A program made the position numbers and the translations under genes. Shown one piece after another: positions 3,092-6,403 of a stretch of 7,911 nt of DNA. The DNA is from Desulfobacteraceae bacterium (lineage in GTDB: Bacteria; Desulfobacterota; Desulfobacteria; Desulfobacterales; Desulfobacteraceae), in assembly GCA_003354055.1 (NCBI GenBank), contig PIVQ01000313.1, forward strand, positions 1 to 7,911, given 5' to 3'. Position 1 is the stretch's first letter. The number at the start of each line of letters is the position of its first letter. Below the pieces are notes generated by a model, which had not been told where the DNA came from, made no database searches, and worked only from the letters and a program-made list of their open reading frames with translations.

Positions 3092-3121
3092 TTGACAAGC
3101 TTTGAACAGGCAAGGTACAAA
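3092..3121 (+). promoter_or_regulatory. Promoter candidate for the PAS kinase
   Basis: A perfect TTGACA (3092-3097), 18 nt, then TACAAA (3116-3121; 4 of 6). Transcription would begin near 3128, leaving a leader of about 28 nt with the ribosome binding site AAGGAGG (3144-3150). This also argues against the in-frame ATG at 3102, which lies inside this promoter. Confidence 0.5.
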
Positions 3122-3155
3122 ACAACGATCGCATACACCCATCAAGGAGGTAGGA

Positions 3156-4973
3156 ATGACCGATCACACCCCGGGAGTACTGGATGCCCTGAATGCTTTT
3201 GAAGAGGGCTTTTGTATCATTAACGAATATTATACCATTGAATACATGAATAAATTCATGACAGGATATTTCGGGGAGGGGGTTGGGAAAAAATGCTATG
3301 AAGTGCTGACCGGGTTTGATGTCCCCTGCAGCTGGTGCAAGCATGGTGAGGTGTTTGAAAAGAAAGAAACCCATCGAAGTGAAGTGTTTATTCCGTCCGT
3401 GGGGAAGACCTTTGCCCTGACGGAACTGCCGGTGAGCAACAGGGACGGCAGCCGGTCAAAACTCTCAATTTACAGGGATATCTCGGATGTGGTGGAGCAG
3501 AAGGCCAAACTTAAATCCTCCCTTGCCAGTTACCAGCGTCTGTTCACACATGCCGGGTGCGGGGTGTTTATCTCTTCCAAAGAGGGGCGGTTTCTGGATG
3601 TGAATCCTGCCCTGCTGGAAATGCTGGGCTACCAGGATAAAGACGAATTTCTTTCCCTGGACCTGGCCACGGACGTCTATCTGAGGCCCGAAGACCGGCG
3701 TCAATACAGAAGAAATGTTGAGAAAAAGGGGCAGTTAGTGGATTACGAGGTGAGGTGGCGGCGCAGGGACGGCCATATCCTTCATATTCTGCTGACCTCC
3801 AATGTCCGTTATGATGAAGGTGGAGAGGTGTTGGGCTATGAGGGTATTGTTGTGGATCGGACCCGGCGCAAGTTAAATGAAGACCGGATTCGGGAAGCCC
3901 GTGACTTTTTGGATAAAATTATCTCCTGTTCGCCCAATGCCACTATGACCATGGAGATGGCAGGAGATATTAAACTCTGGAATGCCGGAGCCCAGGAGGT
4001 TTTCGGACCGATCGCGGAAGAGGTGGTCGGCAAGATGAATATCCGGGATGTTTTCGGTAAAGATGTGACTGTCAATGTTCTGGATATGATGCGGGATACA
4101 GGCTTTGGGGGGAAAGGGCGGCTTAACTCTTTTTCTTTGAATTTGGCCCGGAAGGACGGAGAATCTCTGGAGGGGAATCTGTCTGCCAGTATTATTTATG
4201 ATGAAAAAGGCAGGGAACTGGCATGGATTGCCATTTTTGTGGACCTCAAAGAACGGCTAAAAACAGAACGGGAGTTGTCCGAGGCCCGTCAGCATTTGCT
4301 TCAGTCCGAGAAACTCGCTGCTATGGGACGGCTCACCTCCCAGGTTGCCCACGAACTGAATAATCCTCTGTTCGGCATCATGAATACCCTGGAATTGATG
4401 AAAACCGAAATCTCTCCCACAAATAAACGGCGCAAGCTTCTGGATATGTCCCTGTCCGAAACCATGCGGCTGGCGGATATGCTTAAAAAGATGCTTTCCT
4501 TTTCAAAACCGGATCAGGACATCCGGGTGGAACTGGATATTCATACGGTCTTGGATGAATTGCTTTTGCTCTATGAAAAACAGTTCAGAGAAAGCAGCAT
4601 AAAGCTGCTCCTGAATCTCATGGAAACCCCGGCTAAAATCAAGGCATCTAAGGATCAGCTCCGCCAGGTCTTTATCAACCTTTTTTCCAATGCTATGTAT
4701 GCCATGCCCGATGGCGGCGAGCTGAAAATCGGCACGGCCGTTACCTCGTCCACCTTGAAGATTTCAGTGGAAGATACCGGCACCGGTATCAAACCCGAAC
4801 ACATCGGCAAGGTGTTTGAATCGTTTTTTACCACCAAAACCGAAAGTGTTCAGGGGGTTGGCTTAGGATTGTCAGTCTGCTACGGGTTTATCCAGGAGCA
4901 TGGGGGGGACATCAAGGTGTCTTCGAGGTTGGGTGAGTGGACTAAGTTTGAGATATCACTTCCGCTGCTTTGA
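3156..4973 (+). CDS. Soluble PAS-PAS-PAS sensor histidine kinase
   Basis: The start at ATG 3156 has AAGGAGG 5 nt upstream; an in-frame ATG at 3102 has no ribosome binding site. That gives 605 residues with no TM segment, so a cytoplasmic sensor. Three PAS-type modules are visible: about 8-118 (LDALNAFEEGFCIINEYYTI, ending in YRDISDVVEQ), 124-245 (YQRLFTHAGCGVFI, VNPALLEMLGY, a PEDR turn, GIVVDRT) and 248-370 (FLDKIISCSPNATMTM, ending in FVDLKERLK). PAS1 contains C47-x10-C58-x2-C61, a Cys pattern often seen in PAS domains of anaerobes and suggestive of metal or redox sensing. HisKA has H399 in SQVAHELNNPLFGI. The ATPase has N512, D540-x-G542-x-G544, FESFFTTK (554-561) and GVGLGL (567-572), and it ends normally at ISLPLL. 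There is no receiver, so it must pass phosphate to a separate response regulator; the HTH-receiver protein at 6727 is the nearest one, but this is only inference. Confidence 0.93.
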   Translation: MTDHTPGVLDALNAFEEGFCIINEYYTIEYMNKFMTGYFGEGVGKKCYEVLTGFDVPCSWCKHGEVFEKKETHRSEVFIPSVGKTFALTELPVSNRDGSRSKLSIYRDISDVVEQKAKLKSSLASYQRLFTHAGCGVFISSKEGRFLDVNPALLEMLGYQDKDEFLSLDLATDVYLRPEDRRQYRRNVEKKGQLVDYEVRWRRRDGHILHILLTSNVRYDEGGEVLGYEGIVVDRTRRKLNEDRIREARDFLDKIISCSPNATMTMEMAGDIKLWNAGAQEVFGPIAEEVVGKMNIRDVFGKDVTVNVLDMMRDTGFGGKGRLNSFSLNLARKDGESLEGNLSASIIYDEKGRELAWIAIFVDLKERLKTERELSEARQHLLQSEKLAAMGRLTSQVAHELNNPLFGIMNTLELMKTEISPTNKRRKLLDMSLSETMRLADMLKKMLSFSKPDQDIRVELDIHTVLDELLLLYEKQFRESSIKLLLNLMETPAKIKASKDQLRQVFINLFSNAMYAMPDGGELKIGTAVTSSTLKISVEDTGTGIKPEHIGKVFESFFTTKTESVQGVGLGLSVCYGFIQEHGGDIKVSSRLGEWTKFEISLPLL

Positions 4974-5032
4974 AGCAGCGAGAGAAGCGGGGAAAGCGAG
5001 GAAAGCGAGGAAAGCTGGAAAAGCGAGAAAAG
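4974..5032 (+). repeat. Tandem 9-bp purine-rich repeat directly after the PAS-kinase stop
   Basis: From the base after TGA (4971-4973), six 9-bp units follow: AGCAGCGAG, AGAAGCGGG, GAAAGCGAG, GAAAGCGAG, GAAAGCTGG, AAAAGCGAG, then a partial AAAAG. The consensus is about RRAAGCKRG. A second array with the same units follows the crcB stop (5982-6026) in the opposite direction. The best-matching 26-nt segments are 5003-5028 and 5999-6024 (inverted), with 2 mismatches. The unit length keeps the coding phase, but the kinase domain is complete before the stop, so this is taken as untranslated. Confidence 0.8.
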
Positions 5033-5043
5033 TTAAGGAAGAA

Positions 5044-5178
5044 TTACATCATTATATGTATGAACAGTGTCTTGATCTGACCTTTGTCTGTAGGATTTAT
5101 CACAGGCTGGCTTACCAATCTGCTGACTCATAGATAGGATAATACTTGAGTCATCGAATCAACAGATTCTATTATCAT
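5044..5178 (-). pseudogene. Possible decayed cassette ORF, interrupted by one TGA
   Basis: On the minus strand an ATG at 5178 begins 5 nt after the core of the attC-like site. It reads MIIESVDSMTQVLSYL, then TGA (5130-5128), then 27 more open codons (including SQPVINPTDKGQIKT) to TAA at 5046-5044. The position right after an attC core is where the next cassette ORF would start. No ribosome binding site is seen and the product is not recognised. It may be a decayed cassette gene or chance. The plus strand here also has dyads TGACTCA/TGAGTCA (5124-5130, 5147-5153) and GAATC-AACA-GATTC (5156-5169). The tract 5033-5182 holds nothing else I can name. Confidence 0.2.
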
Positions 5179-5182
5179 TACT

Positions 5183-5269
5183 TTTTAACGATTGAGTTGA
5201 AGGGCCGCGCCAGAGCCTTTAAAAAAAGCGACTGAGCGTCTCGCGGTCCCGTCGAGCGATGAGTTATGG
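5183..5269 (-). other. attC-like integron recombination site, downstream end of the cassette
   Basis: Read on the minus strand, the site begins with an R''-type core CCATAAC (5269-5263) and ends with an R'-type core GTTAAAA (5189-5183), compared with consensus RYYYAAC ... GTTRRRY. The 87-nt element is an imperfect palindrome. CGACGGGACCGCG on one arm pairs with CGCGGCCCTTCAA on the other, with one base extra on one arm, like the extrahelical base of attC sites. The centre is a variable loop of about 25-30 nt with an A7 run. It lies 26 nt after the stop of the 78-aa ORF, as in a gene cassette. The end next to R' (AACGATTGAG on plus) is shared with the second site at 5559-5662. Confidence 0.65.
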
Positions 5270-5564
5270 CTCATTTCTATGATATAGTTGAAAATTTAGA
5301 TACCAATTAGCTTGCTAATATATATTCCTATTTGCTTTTGGCCAACAAATGATAAAAAAACAAAAAAGATTATCCCCACACCATACATTCCAACAATAAA
5401 CCAAAATCCTGTAGGATCTTTTTTTTTGTCATATAAAATACTTCCATCTCTTAATTTTATGTGGCCTCTTTTTATCAATAAGATAATATAGCCGGCTAAA
5501 AATATTGATATTACGAATGTGAAATACTCCAAATTAACACCTTTTGAAAACTATAGAGCTATAA
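5189..5564 (-). mobile_element. Integron-type gene cassette, about 376 nt
   Basis: Taking the usual G/TT cut in the R' core, the cassette runs on the minus strand from the TT of the upstream site (5564) to the G of the downstream site (5189). It contains a short leader, one 78-aa ORF and its own attC-like site. Size, single ORF, tight leader and orientation all fit known cassettes. No integrase gene or attI is in the window, so it would belong to a distant integron or to an integrase-less cluster (CALIN). The ORF part is visibly more AT-rich than the flanking kinase and crcB genes, consistent with transfer. Confidence 0.55.
5296..5532 (-). CDS. Small two-TM membrane protein of unknown function, in a cassette
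   Basis: The product has 78 aa. TM1 covers about residues 3-20 (FTFVISIFLAGYIILLI) and TM2 about 42-63 (FWFIVGMYGVGIIFFVFLSF). They are joined by a polar loop, KRGHIKLRDGSILYDKKKDPTGFW. The loop pattern G-x-I-x-x-R-x-G-x-x-x-(x)-basic-DP-x-x-FW is one I recall in small bacterial membrane proteins of unknown function; no activity is known to me. The start is TTG at 5532 with AAGGTG 5 nt upstream. The next in-frame Met is in TM2, so the TTG is required to keep TM1. The leader from the upstream attC core to the start is only about 30 nt, typical of a cassette ORF. No other promoter is seen, so expression may depend on upstream reading or on a promoter inside the attC or leader. Confidence 0.6.
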   Translation of the reverse strand: MEYFTFVISIFLAGYIILLIKRGHIKLRDGSILYDKKKDPTGFWFIVGMYGVGIIFFVFLSFVGQKQIGIYISKLIGI

Positions 5565-5662
5565 CGATTAAGCCAACCTTCCGACCAATGCTATTTGAGG
5601 CTTGTACAGCCTTTATAGGGAATCCGCATTGGCTTTCCGGTCAGGTTCCGCGCCTGATTATG
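5559..5662 (-). other. Second attC-like site, upstream of the cassette ORF
   Basis: On the minus strand the 3' core is GTTATAG (5565-5559) and the 5' core is a diverged CATAATC (5662-5656). Between them is a 104-nt imperfect palindrome. GCATTGG and CCAATGC (5626-5632, 5585-5591) pair perfectly, outer arms contain GGAACC/GGTTGG-type matches, and a nested AGGCT-TGTAC-AGCCT hairpin (5598-5612) lies in the centre. The plus-strand end AACGATTAAG (5563-5572) matches AACGATTGAG of the other site (5187-5196), as expected for attC sites of one array in the same orientation. The degenerate R'' core makes it weaker than the first site. Confidence 0.5.
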
Positions 5663-5781
5663 TGAAATTATATTTTTTCCATATAGATTGTTTTCAGTTT
5701 AACACACAATGTGATTAATGGATCTGGATATCCAGATCAAAATATCATCTTTTTATTTTCCGAGTAAATCGACTCTAATGG

Positions 5782-5883
5782 TCAACTGATTTTGAGAATA
5801 TCAATACCCTGCTCCAAATTGCAACTGTTAAGATTCTGTACAAATAAGTTTACCATTCGAGAGTTACGAATAACTTGCATCAT
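5782..5883 (-). CDS. Doubtful 33-aa ORF, possible remnant of the preceding cassette
   Basis: Minus-strand ATG-ATG at 5883 reads MMQVIRNSRMVNLFVQNLNS plus 13 more residues to TGA. The frame is open back to 5928 (48 codons in all). Its composition looks protein-like, but no ribosome binding site is visible and I recognise no family. It lies in the direction and place where the gene of the preceding cassette would be, 120 nt before the 5559-5662 site. The stretch 5663-5780 is AT-rich and otherwise empty, apart from a CTGGATATCCAG palindrome (5722-5733). Confidence 0.2.
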   Translation of the reverse strand: MMQVIRNSRMVNLFVQNLNSCNLEQGIDILKIS

Positions 5884-5964
5884 TGATAAAATTTGACTGT
5901 AGAATTTGTCGGTATTAATTGTTGACAGTCACTGGCAGATGTAGCCGTATATTATAATAAATGT

Positions 5965-5977
5965 TGCGCGTAGCGCA
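5965..5977 (-). terminator. Weak hairpin after crcB, possible terminator
   Basis: On the minus strand TGCGC-TAC-GCGCA is a 5-bp GC-rich stem with a 3-nt loop, followed by ACATTTATTATAATA. It lies about 50 nt beyond the crcB stop, just after the 9-bp repeat tail. The following tract is U-rich but broken by A's, so efficiency would be poor. Confidence 0.25.
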
Positions 5978-5981
5978 TCCT

Positions 5982-6026
5982 CAAGCTTTTCTTGCTGCTC
6001 TCGCTTTTCCAGCTCTTCTCGCTTGC
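5982..6026 (-). repeat. Tandem 9-bp purine-rich repeat directly after the crcB stop
   Basis: On the minus strand the units are GCAAGCGAG, AAGAGCTGG, AAAAGCGAG, AGCAGCAAG and AAAAGCTTG. The first unit shares its G with the crcB stop TAG. Same family as the array at 4974-5032 and likewise in sense orientation for the gene it follows, so the two arrays face each other about 0.95 kb apart. Confidence 0.75.
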
Positions 6027-6403
6027 TAAACCATCCTCGCCAAATTAAACCCGCCCCAGACGCCCAAAAGTCCCAATGTCAGTTGCAACACCACATTCAG
6101 CGCCGCCATCCCCACCTGGCCGTTGCGGATGAAGAAAAAAAGTTCGTATCCAAAGGTGGAGAAGGTGGTGAAACCGCCGAGAAAGCCTATAAAGATCAGG
6201 GCGCGTAGTTCCGGGCTGAATATGTCTTTTGTCTCTGCAATTCCGCCGAGAAATCCAATGGCAAGGCAGCCGGATATATTTACAATAAAGGTGCCTAAGG
6301 GGAGCCAGGCATTTTTGACCATGATCAGGGAGGCTTCGTAGATCATGTATCGGCAGATGGCTCCCATCCCGCCCCCAAGACCCACCATCAGTATTTTTAT
6401 CAT
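6026..6403 (-). CDS. crcB: Fluoride ion channel/exporter CrcB (Fluc)
   Basis: This inner-membrane fluoride channel lowers cytoplasmic fluoride; it works as a dual-topology homodimer. The 125 aa are the usual length, with four hydrophobic segments. Family motifs are all present: GGGMGAICRY (10-19, with R18), GTFIVNISGC (37-46, with the pore Asn N42), and GFLGGFTTFSTF (73-84), which carries the central Na+-site residues and the phenylalanines F81 and F84 of the fluoride path. ATG 403 of this minus-strand frame (6403) is preceded by GGAAAG, a modest ribosome binding site. It is divergent from the HTH-receiver operon, and its 3' end faces the cassette region. No second crcB copy is next to it, consistent with a homodimer. 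A structured leader is present (6438-6464), but no canonical fluoride riboswitch could be matched. Confidence 0.95.
   Translation of the reverse strand: MIKILMVGLGGGMGAICRYMIYEASLIMVKNAWLPLGTFIVNISGCLAIGFLGGIAETKDIFSPELRALIFIGFLGGFTTFSTFGYELFFFIRNGQVGMAALNVVLQLTLGLLGVWGGFNLARMV

Follow-up and report, generated by a model that had tools for sequence, protein, structure and literature searches.

The window analysed here is the whole of a 7,911-nucleotide stretch of DNA (contig PIVQ01000313.1 of assembly GCA_003354055.1), and its host is a Desulfobacteraceae sulfate reducer. In the gap between a histidine kinase gene and a CrcB-like gene lie two attC sites that frame a short open reading frame (ORF), the layout of an integron gene cassette. 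The features of this element are given below, where G^TT is the position at which attC sites are cut and R1 is our covariance model of attC sites, described later.

5189–5564, minus strand: cassette unit, G^TT to G^TT, 376 nt (read from the sequence)
5296–5532, minus strand: ORF of the cassette, 78 amino acids (aa), TTG start (ORF list)
5183–5269, minus strand: attC site 1, closing the cassette at its 3′ end (R1 match, blastn matches, hairpin fold)
5559–5663, minus strand: attC site 2, the attC of the preceding cassette (R1 match; weaker)

In integrons, cassettes move in and out as circles: the integrase, IntI, binds attC as a folded bottom strand and makes its joins at G^TT. The bottom strand of the sites here is the plus strand of the window. 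The original prediction described two imperfect palindromes that frame a 376-nt unit with one TTG-started 78-aa ORF, and this arrangement can be read directly from the letters, with 26 nt between the ORF and each site. Read on the minus strand, site 1 (5269–5183) runs from R″ CCATAAC to R′ GTTAAAA, and site 2 (5663–5559) from R″ ACATAAT to R′ GTTATAG; the R″ and R′ boxes carry the AAC and GTT cores of attC, with AAT in the R″ of site 2. The motifs that adjoin the cores, AACGATTGAG (5187–5196) at site 1 and AACGATTAAG (5563–5572) at site 2, have AACGATTRAG in common in the same orientation, just as had been described. The L stem of site 1, GACGGG(A)CCGCG / CGCGGCCCTTC, has one mismatch and, on its 5′ arm, the one extra base that had also been noticed. 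Site 1 looks usable and site 2 is probably decayed, so that clean excision of the cassette today would be unlikely. Immediately upstream of the TTG is AAAAGGTG, a plausible ribosome-binding sequence, and by eye the 78-aa product looks membrane-bound.

Our own attC scanners were too noisy (one run gave 21 hits versus 13 on the reversed sequence) and were dropped, so a covariance model was used instead. R1 was built from 23 aligned attC sites of relatives with the attC structure imposed and the window excluded. With filters off, it picks exactly the two palindromes in the window, site 1 with 73.5 bits (E = 1.4e-25) and site 2 with 23.3 bits (E = 1.8e-6), while the third-best match has 9.7 bits (E = 0.27); these E-values are rough. 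Our own covariance model, a check of the kind that the original prediction had proposed, thus finds both elements, site 1 strongly and site 2 more weakly than had been implied. As a background, 80 related loci (1.23 Mb, default filters) gave three matches of at least 23 bits, some of which are possibly real sites. Among the aligned relatives, pairing holds for 95% of the cells in the L stem and for 58% in the R box, where the three outermost pairs are mostly unpaired; this is expected from exchange at G^TT, as the bases after the G are supplied by the next cassette. A search of the window with Rfam gave no relevant family and only two weak matches, both to eukaryotic families. When its bottom strand is folded by itself as DNA, site 1 forms a full attC-type hairpin of −11.9 kcal/mol, inside the range of the 23 relatives' sites (−10.4 to −22.4 kcal/mol).

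The position of the sites relative to genes was assessed over 52 sites: 58 R1 matches, less six (one duplicate and five below 27 bits), plus the two in the window, less two of these 54 that lie too near the end of their locus. A same-strand ORF of at least 50 aa ends no more than 120 nt before R″ at 49 of the 52, and the mirror arrangement is seen at 17 (window included), with two further sites not assessable for it. Site 1 has such an ORF just before its R″.

Relatives carry the same type of site beside integrases (G, C and L numbers are our handles for genomes, contigs and loci). The integron integrase profile TIGR02249 is above its curated cut-off in 45 of the 86 genomes of the family (and in seven of the 12 related genomes of our first search), and R1 matches at E 1e-4 in 60 of the 86, a count made with stricter filters than those of an earlier R1 search, in which alone G002 matched. 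The suggestion that integrons are unusual in sulfate reducers therefore does not hold for this family. Integrase and R1 match occur together in 37 genomes, integrase alone in eight, R1 match alone in 23 and neither in 18 (Fisher p = 0.010); incomplete assemblies may explain part of the 23. A blastn search with site 1 (a query of 93 bases with three flanking bases on each side, which cannot show where similarity ends) gave matches in 19 of the 86 genomes with identity of up to 81%; this count includes G048, with a 24-base match that by eye is no attC. In Desulfospira joergensenii (G008, L095 6344–10417), the gene for a full-length integrase of 325 aa has small ORFs after it, and an attC site stands at the end of each (three found by R1, the fourth by our own scanner). 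The first two of these sites share TAAC, GACGGGACCGCGAG, CTCAG.CGC, GCGCGGCCC and CGTTA with site 1 and are of equal length. The D. joergensenii integron thus has an attC nearly identical in motif and length to that of the window and small ORFs before each site; it differs in its integrase and its several cassettes in a row, neither of which the window has.

The surroundings of the cassette bear on how it came to lie there.

3102–4973, plus strand: PAS-domain histidine kinase gene, left neighbour (profile and homology searches)
4974–5033, plus strand: degenerate AGCGAGAAA-like repeat units, adjoining the stop codon of the kinase gene (inverted partner of 5971–6025)
5718–5920, no strand assigned: dispersed-repeat stretch with no recognisable cassette (DNA matches in other genomes)
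5971–6025, minus strand: inverted partner of the AGCGAGAAA-like repeat, directly after the crcB stop codon (sequence comparison)
6026–6403, minus strand: CrcB-like gene, right neighbour, convergent with the kinase gene (profile search)

The kinase shares 88% identity with that of L001, 84% with that of L002 and 77% with that of L003. In L002, L003 and L004 the kinase gene and crcB are adjacent, with a gap that by reading is about 25 to 75 bases, while in L001, from the closest relative, a different gene lies downstream of the kinase. The span between the two genes in the window is 1052 bases; as they are adjacent in three relatives, the block of about 1.05 kb is read as an insertion. The G+C content of the cassette is 0.29, compared with 0.45–0.51 for the kinase gene.

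Taken together, the pair of equally oriented sites, the anatomy of the cassette, the sister sites beside integrases and the absence of the block in three relatives make it very probable that 5183–5663 is one whole integron gene cassette plus the attC of the preceding one, that is, a minimal cluster of attC sites lacking an integron integrase (CALIN) in a Desulfobacteraceae genome. CALINs have been described with a threshold of two attC sites (PMC9024848), and two sites in one orientation, a cassette distance apart, are what the window contains. By the published descriptions, the window resembles a CALIN in having an ORF between two sites of one orientation and no integrase in the stretch; it differs in that the CALINs of one published study have almost six sites on average, whereas here there are two, one of them weak and both called by our own model. 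Integrons in the Desulfobacterota (PMC9668308) and deltaproteobacterial intI clades (PMC2426708) are already in print. Taxon-specific attC families, with a covariance model for the Deltaproteobacteria among them, are likewise in print (PMC8352920); as described there, attC is conserved within a taxon, as we find here. The cassette is thus confirmed from raw sequence; ordinary gene annotation could easily miss elements of this kind, in a group in which integrons are common.

Several observations weigh against this assignment. The R1 score of site 2 is low, its R″ has AAT instead of AAC, no clear ORF of at least 50 aa ends just before that R″, and its bottom strand alone prefers local hairpins to a full one, so that the single-strand folding proposed as a check came out as hoped for site 1 only. 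With a few flanking bases, shuffled sequences folded at least as well as site 1 in 51 of 200 (minus strand) and 21 of 200 (plus strand) cases and as site 2 in 14 and 24 of 200, respectively; the flanked fold energies of both sites are not exceptional. R1 is moreover our own model and not that of IntegronFinder. No integrase was found among the seven window proteins scanned or the ORFs examined in the 7.9-kb window, as the original prediction had also reported, and the window holds no intI with attI beside an attC array, as a complete integron would. The protein search gave no homologue of the 78-aa protein and none was found in any cassette; neither Pfam at 0.1 nor NCBIfam at 0.01 has a match for the protein. 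Its one match in 389 genomes of the order is weak (37% identity, with a stop) and lies at a locus that gave no attC match, and a DNA search of a plasmid collection with the block gave a single 27-base match in one record. Finally, repeats border the block on both sides, and against the short kinase–crcB gap of L002–L004 divergence and these border repeats hide the G^TT junctions of the insertion. Empty-site trials with two further attC sites, at L125 and L117, did not yield a clean junction either.

Under the CALIN assignment, an IntI active at another place in the cell, or in an ancestor, would have supplied the cassette, which would then have entered the repeat-rich space between the two convergent genes. 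It may have arrived by insertion at a non-att target (attG), or it may be the last piece of a lost array. PMC12901181 and PMC12444791 cite the insertion of cassettes at attG sites, and single-attC elements have been named SALIN (PMC12690207); by those descriptions, single cassettes scattered in chromosomes away from an integrase are found there as they are here, although our comparisons gave no empty-site junction at base resolution.

Sites of the window's type are often found in such positions. Ten genomes whose listed sites all lie on contig C1 were used. Of their 36 R1 sites, 27 are separated from every integrase match (E 1e-50) by a linear distance of over 20 kb, and for 21 of these 27 no second R1 site lies within 4 kb, a count in which the members of two pairs, spaced 4.0 and 4.8 kb apart, are treated as solitary. 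A further genome, G024, fits the same description but was left out; its three sites are at least 171 kb from its integrase. Sites within about 3 kb of an integrase are seen in G022 and G029. As R1 detects mainly one attC type, apparently single sites may have unseen neighbours. Across the family, the attC type of the window shows strong conservation and is frequently scattered, an observation that is mildly new.

It is possible, if on balance doubtful, that Desulfobacteraceae keep many of their cassettes outside the arrays beside intI, as scattered insertions of one or two, with an attC type conserved even in its loop, and that the window shows one of these. If so, integrase action at attG-like genomic targets, and not the growth of arrays, would be a main use of integrons in this family. 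The family-wide set of attC sites is a natural ground on which to test whether cassettes frequently insert outside arrays in wild bacteria. Among the papers that literature searches listed, none deals with scattered cassettes in Desulfobacteraceae by its title or the opening of its abstract, although this leaves the absence of such a paper unproven.

Of the other explanations, the one that survives best is that the block is the remnant of a complete integron once present at this place, which lost its integrase and other cassettes, and not an insertion into a new place. The closest relative, G001, would suit this, as it has only integrase-like fragments and a single attC match at E 1e-4; however, no integrase remnant was seen in the window, three relatives have no integron here, the flanks match dispersed repeats and most sister sites in the sampled chromosomes are far from an integrase, so that we regard a remnant as rather unlikely. 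Less likely still is that site 1 alone is a genuine attC, with site 2 a chance or other hairpin and the whole a SALIN. The poor fold of site 2 and its score, near those of the three best background matches, would be explained in this way, but it lies one cassette length from site 1 in the same orientation, has AACGATTRAG in common with it and reaches its E-value within the window, and the single attC site on contig C418 of G001 likewise has, by eye, an R″ of the AAT type. That the palindromes are a dispersed hairpin repeat, REP-like (repetitive extragenic palindrome) or MITE-like (miniature inverted-repeat transposable element), resembling attC without any tie to integrons is scarcely credible: copies are indeed scattered on chromosomes and conserved even in the loop, and the block holds other dispersed repeats, but D. 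joergensenii has the same sites after an integrase gene at one-cassette spacing, R1 sites lie close to integrases in G022 and G029, nearly all sites follow a same-strand ORF, and the outer R-box pairs vary freely beside a paired L stem, as G^TT exchange would yield.

The remainder of the CALIN-bearing block includes repeats. The original prediction took the flanking ORF fragments at 5782–5928 and 5044–5178 for neighbouring, partly decayed cassettes. The first of these overlaps the dispersed-repeat stretch 5718–5920, parts of which match DNA in G082, G083, G001 and G004 (loci L195, L203, L198, L199, L204 and L206) and, weakly, in G042, G054 and G073; 5794–5920 matches in G082, G083, G001 and G004. 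In G082 (C176) the matching DNA lies about 70 bases from a copy of the border repeat, as it does in the window, and R1 gave no attC match in the loci fetched around these relatives. On these grounds 5782–5928 is better read as repeat DNA than as a cassette. For 5044–5178, matches are confined to the border repeat, except for one of 32 bases. The AGCGAGAAA-like border repeat itself was found at 14 places in three of the 86 genomes. We considered the whole block between the inverted border repeats as one mobile unit, but did not adopt this, as ten of the 14 places have no inverted partner in the fetched stretch. In G001 (C500; L180 3190–3616) inverted copies flank the gene for a four-helix-bundle protein (TIGR02436). 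Although the gene at 6026–6403 is CrcB-like, a fluoride riboswitch was not among the Rfam matches listed for the whole window (E up to 1).

Some further observations on sites and integrases of the family were made. The sole R1 match of G001 at E 1e-4 (L186 392–476, contig C418) ends in AATCGTTATC, like the sites of the window; the integrase matches of this genome are fragments. By score, the integrase matches above the cut-off form two groups, one at about 405–480 bits and one at about 312–385 bits, and in the second of these most matches have open frames of about 410–490 aa; both groups are present in G006, G022, G029, G032 and G062. D. joergensenii, an isolate genome, has a second cluster (L190, G008:C1:505000-516000), with R1 sites at 1706, 4604, 7215 and 7695, all four in one orientation; it is a CALIN and lies about 0.9 Mb from the nearest integrase match (E 1e-50). 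Equal R1 scores of 71.7 bits were obtained for the sites L191 3803–3888 and L192 3981–4066, which lie on different contigs of the same genome and are perhaps a recent duplication.
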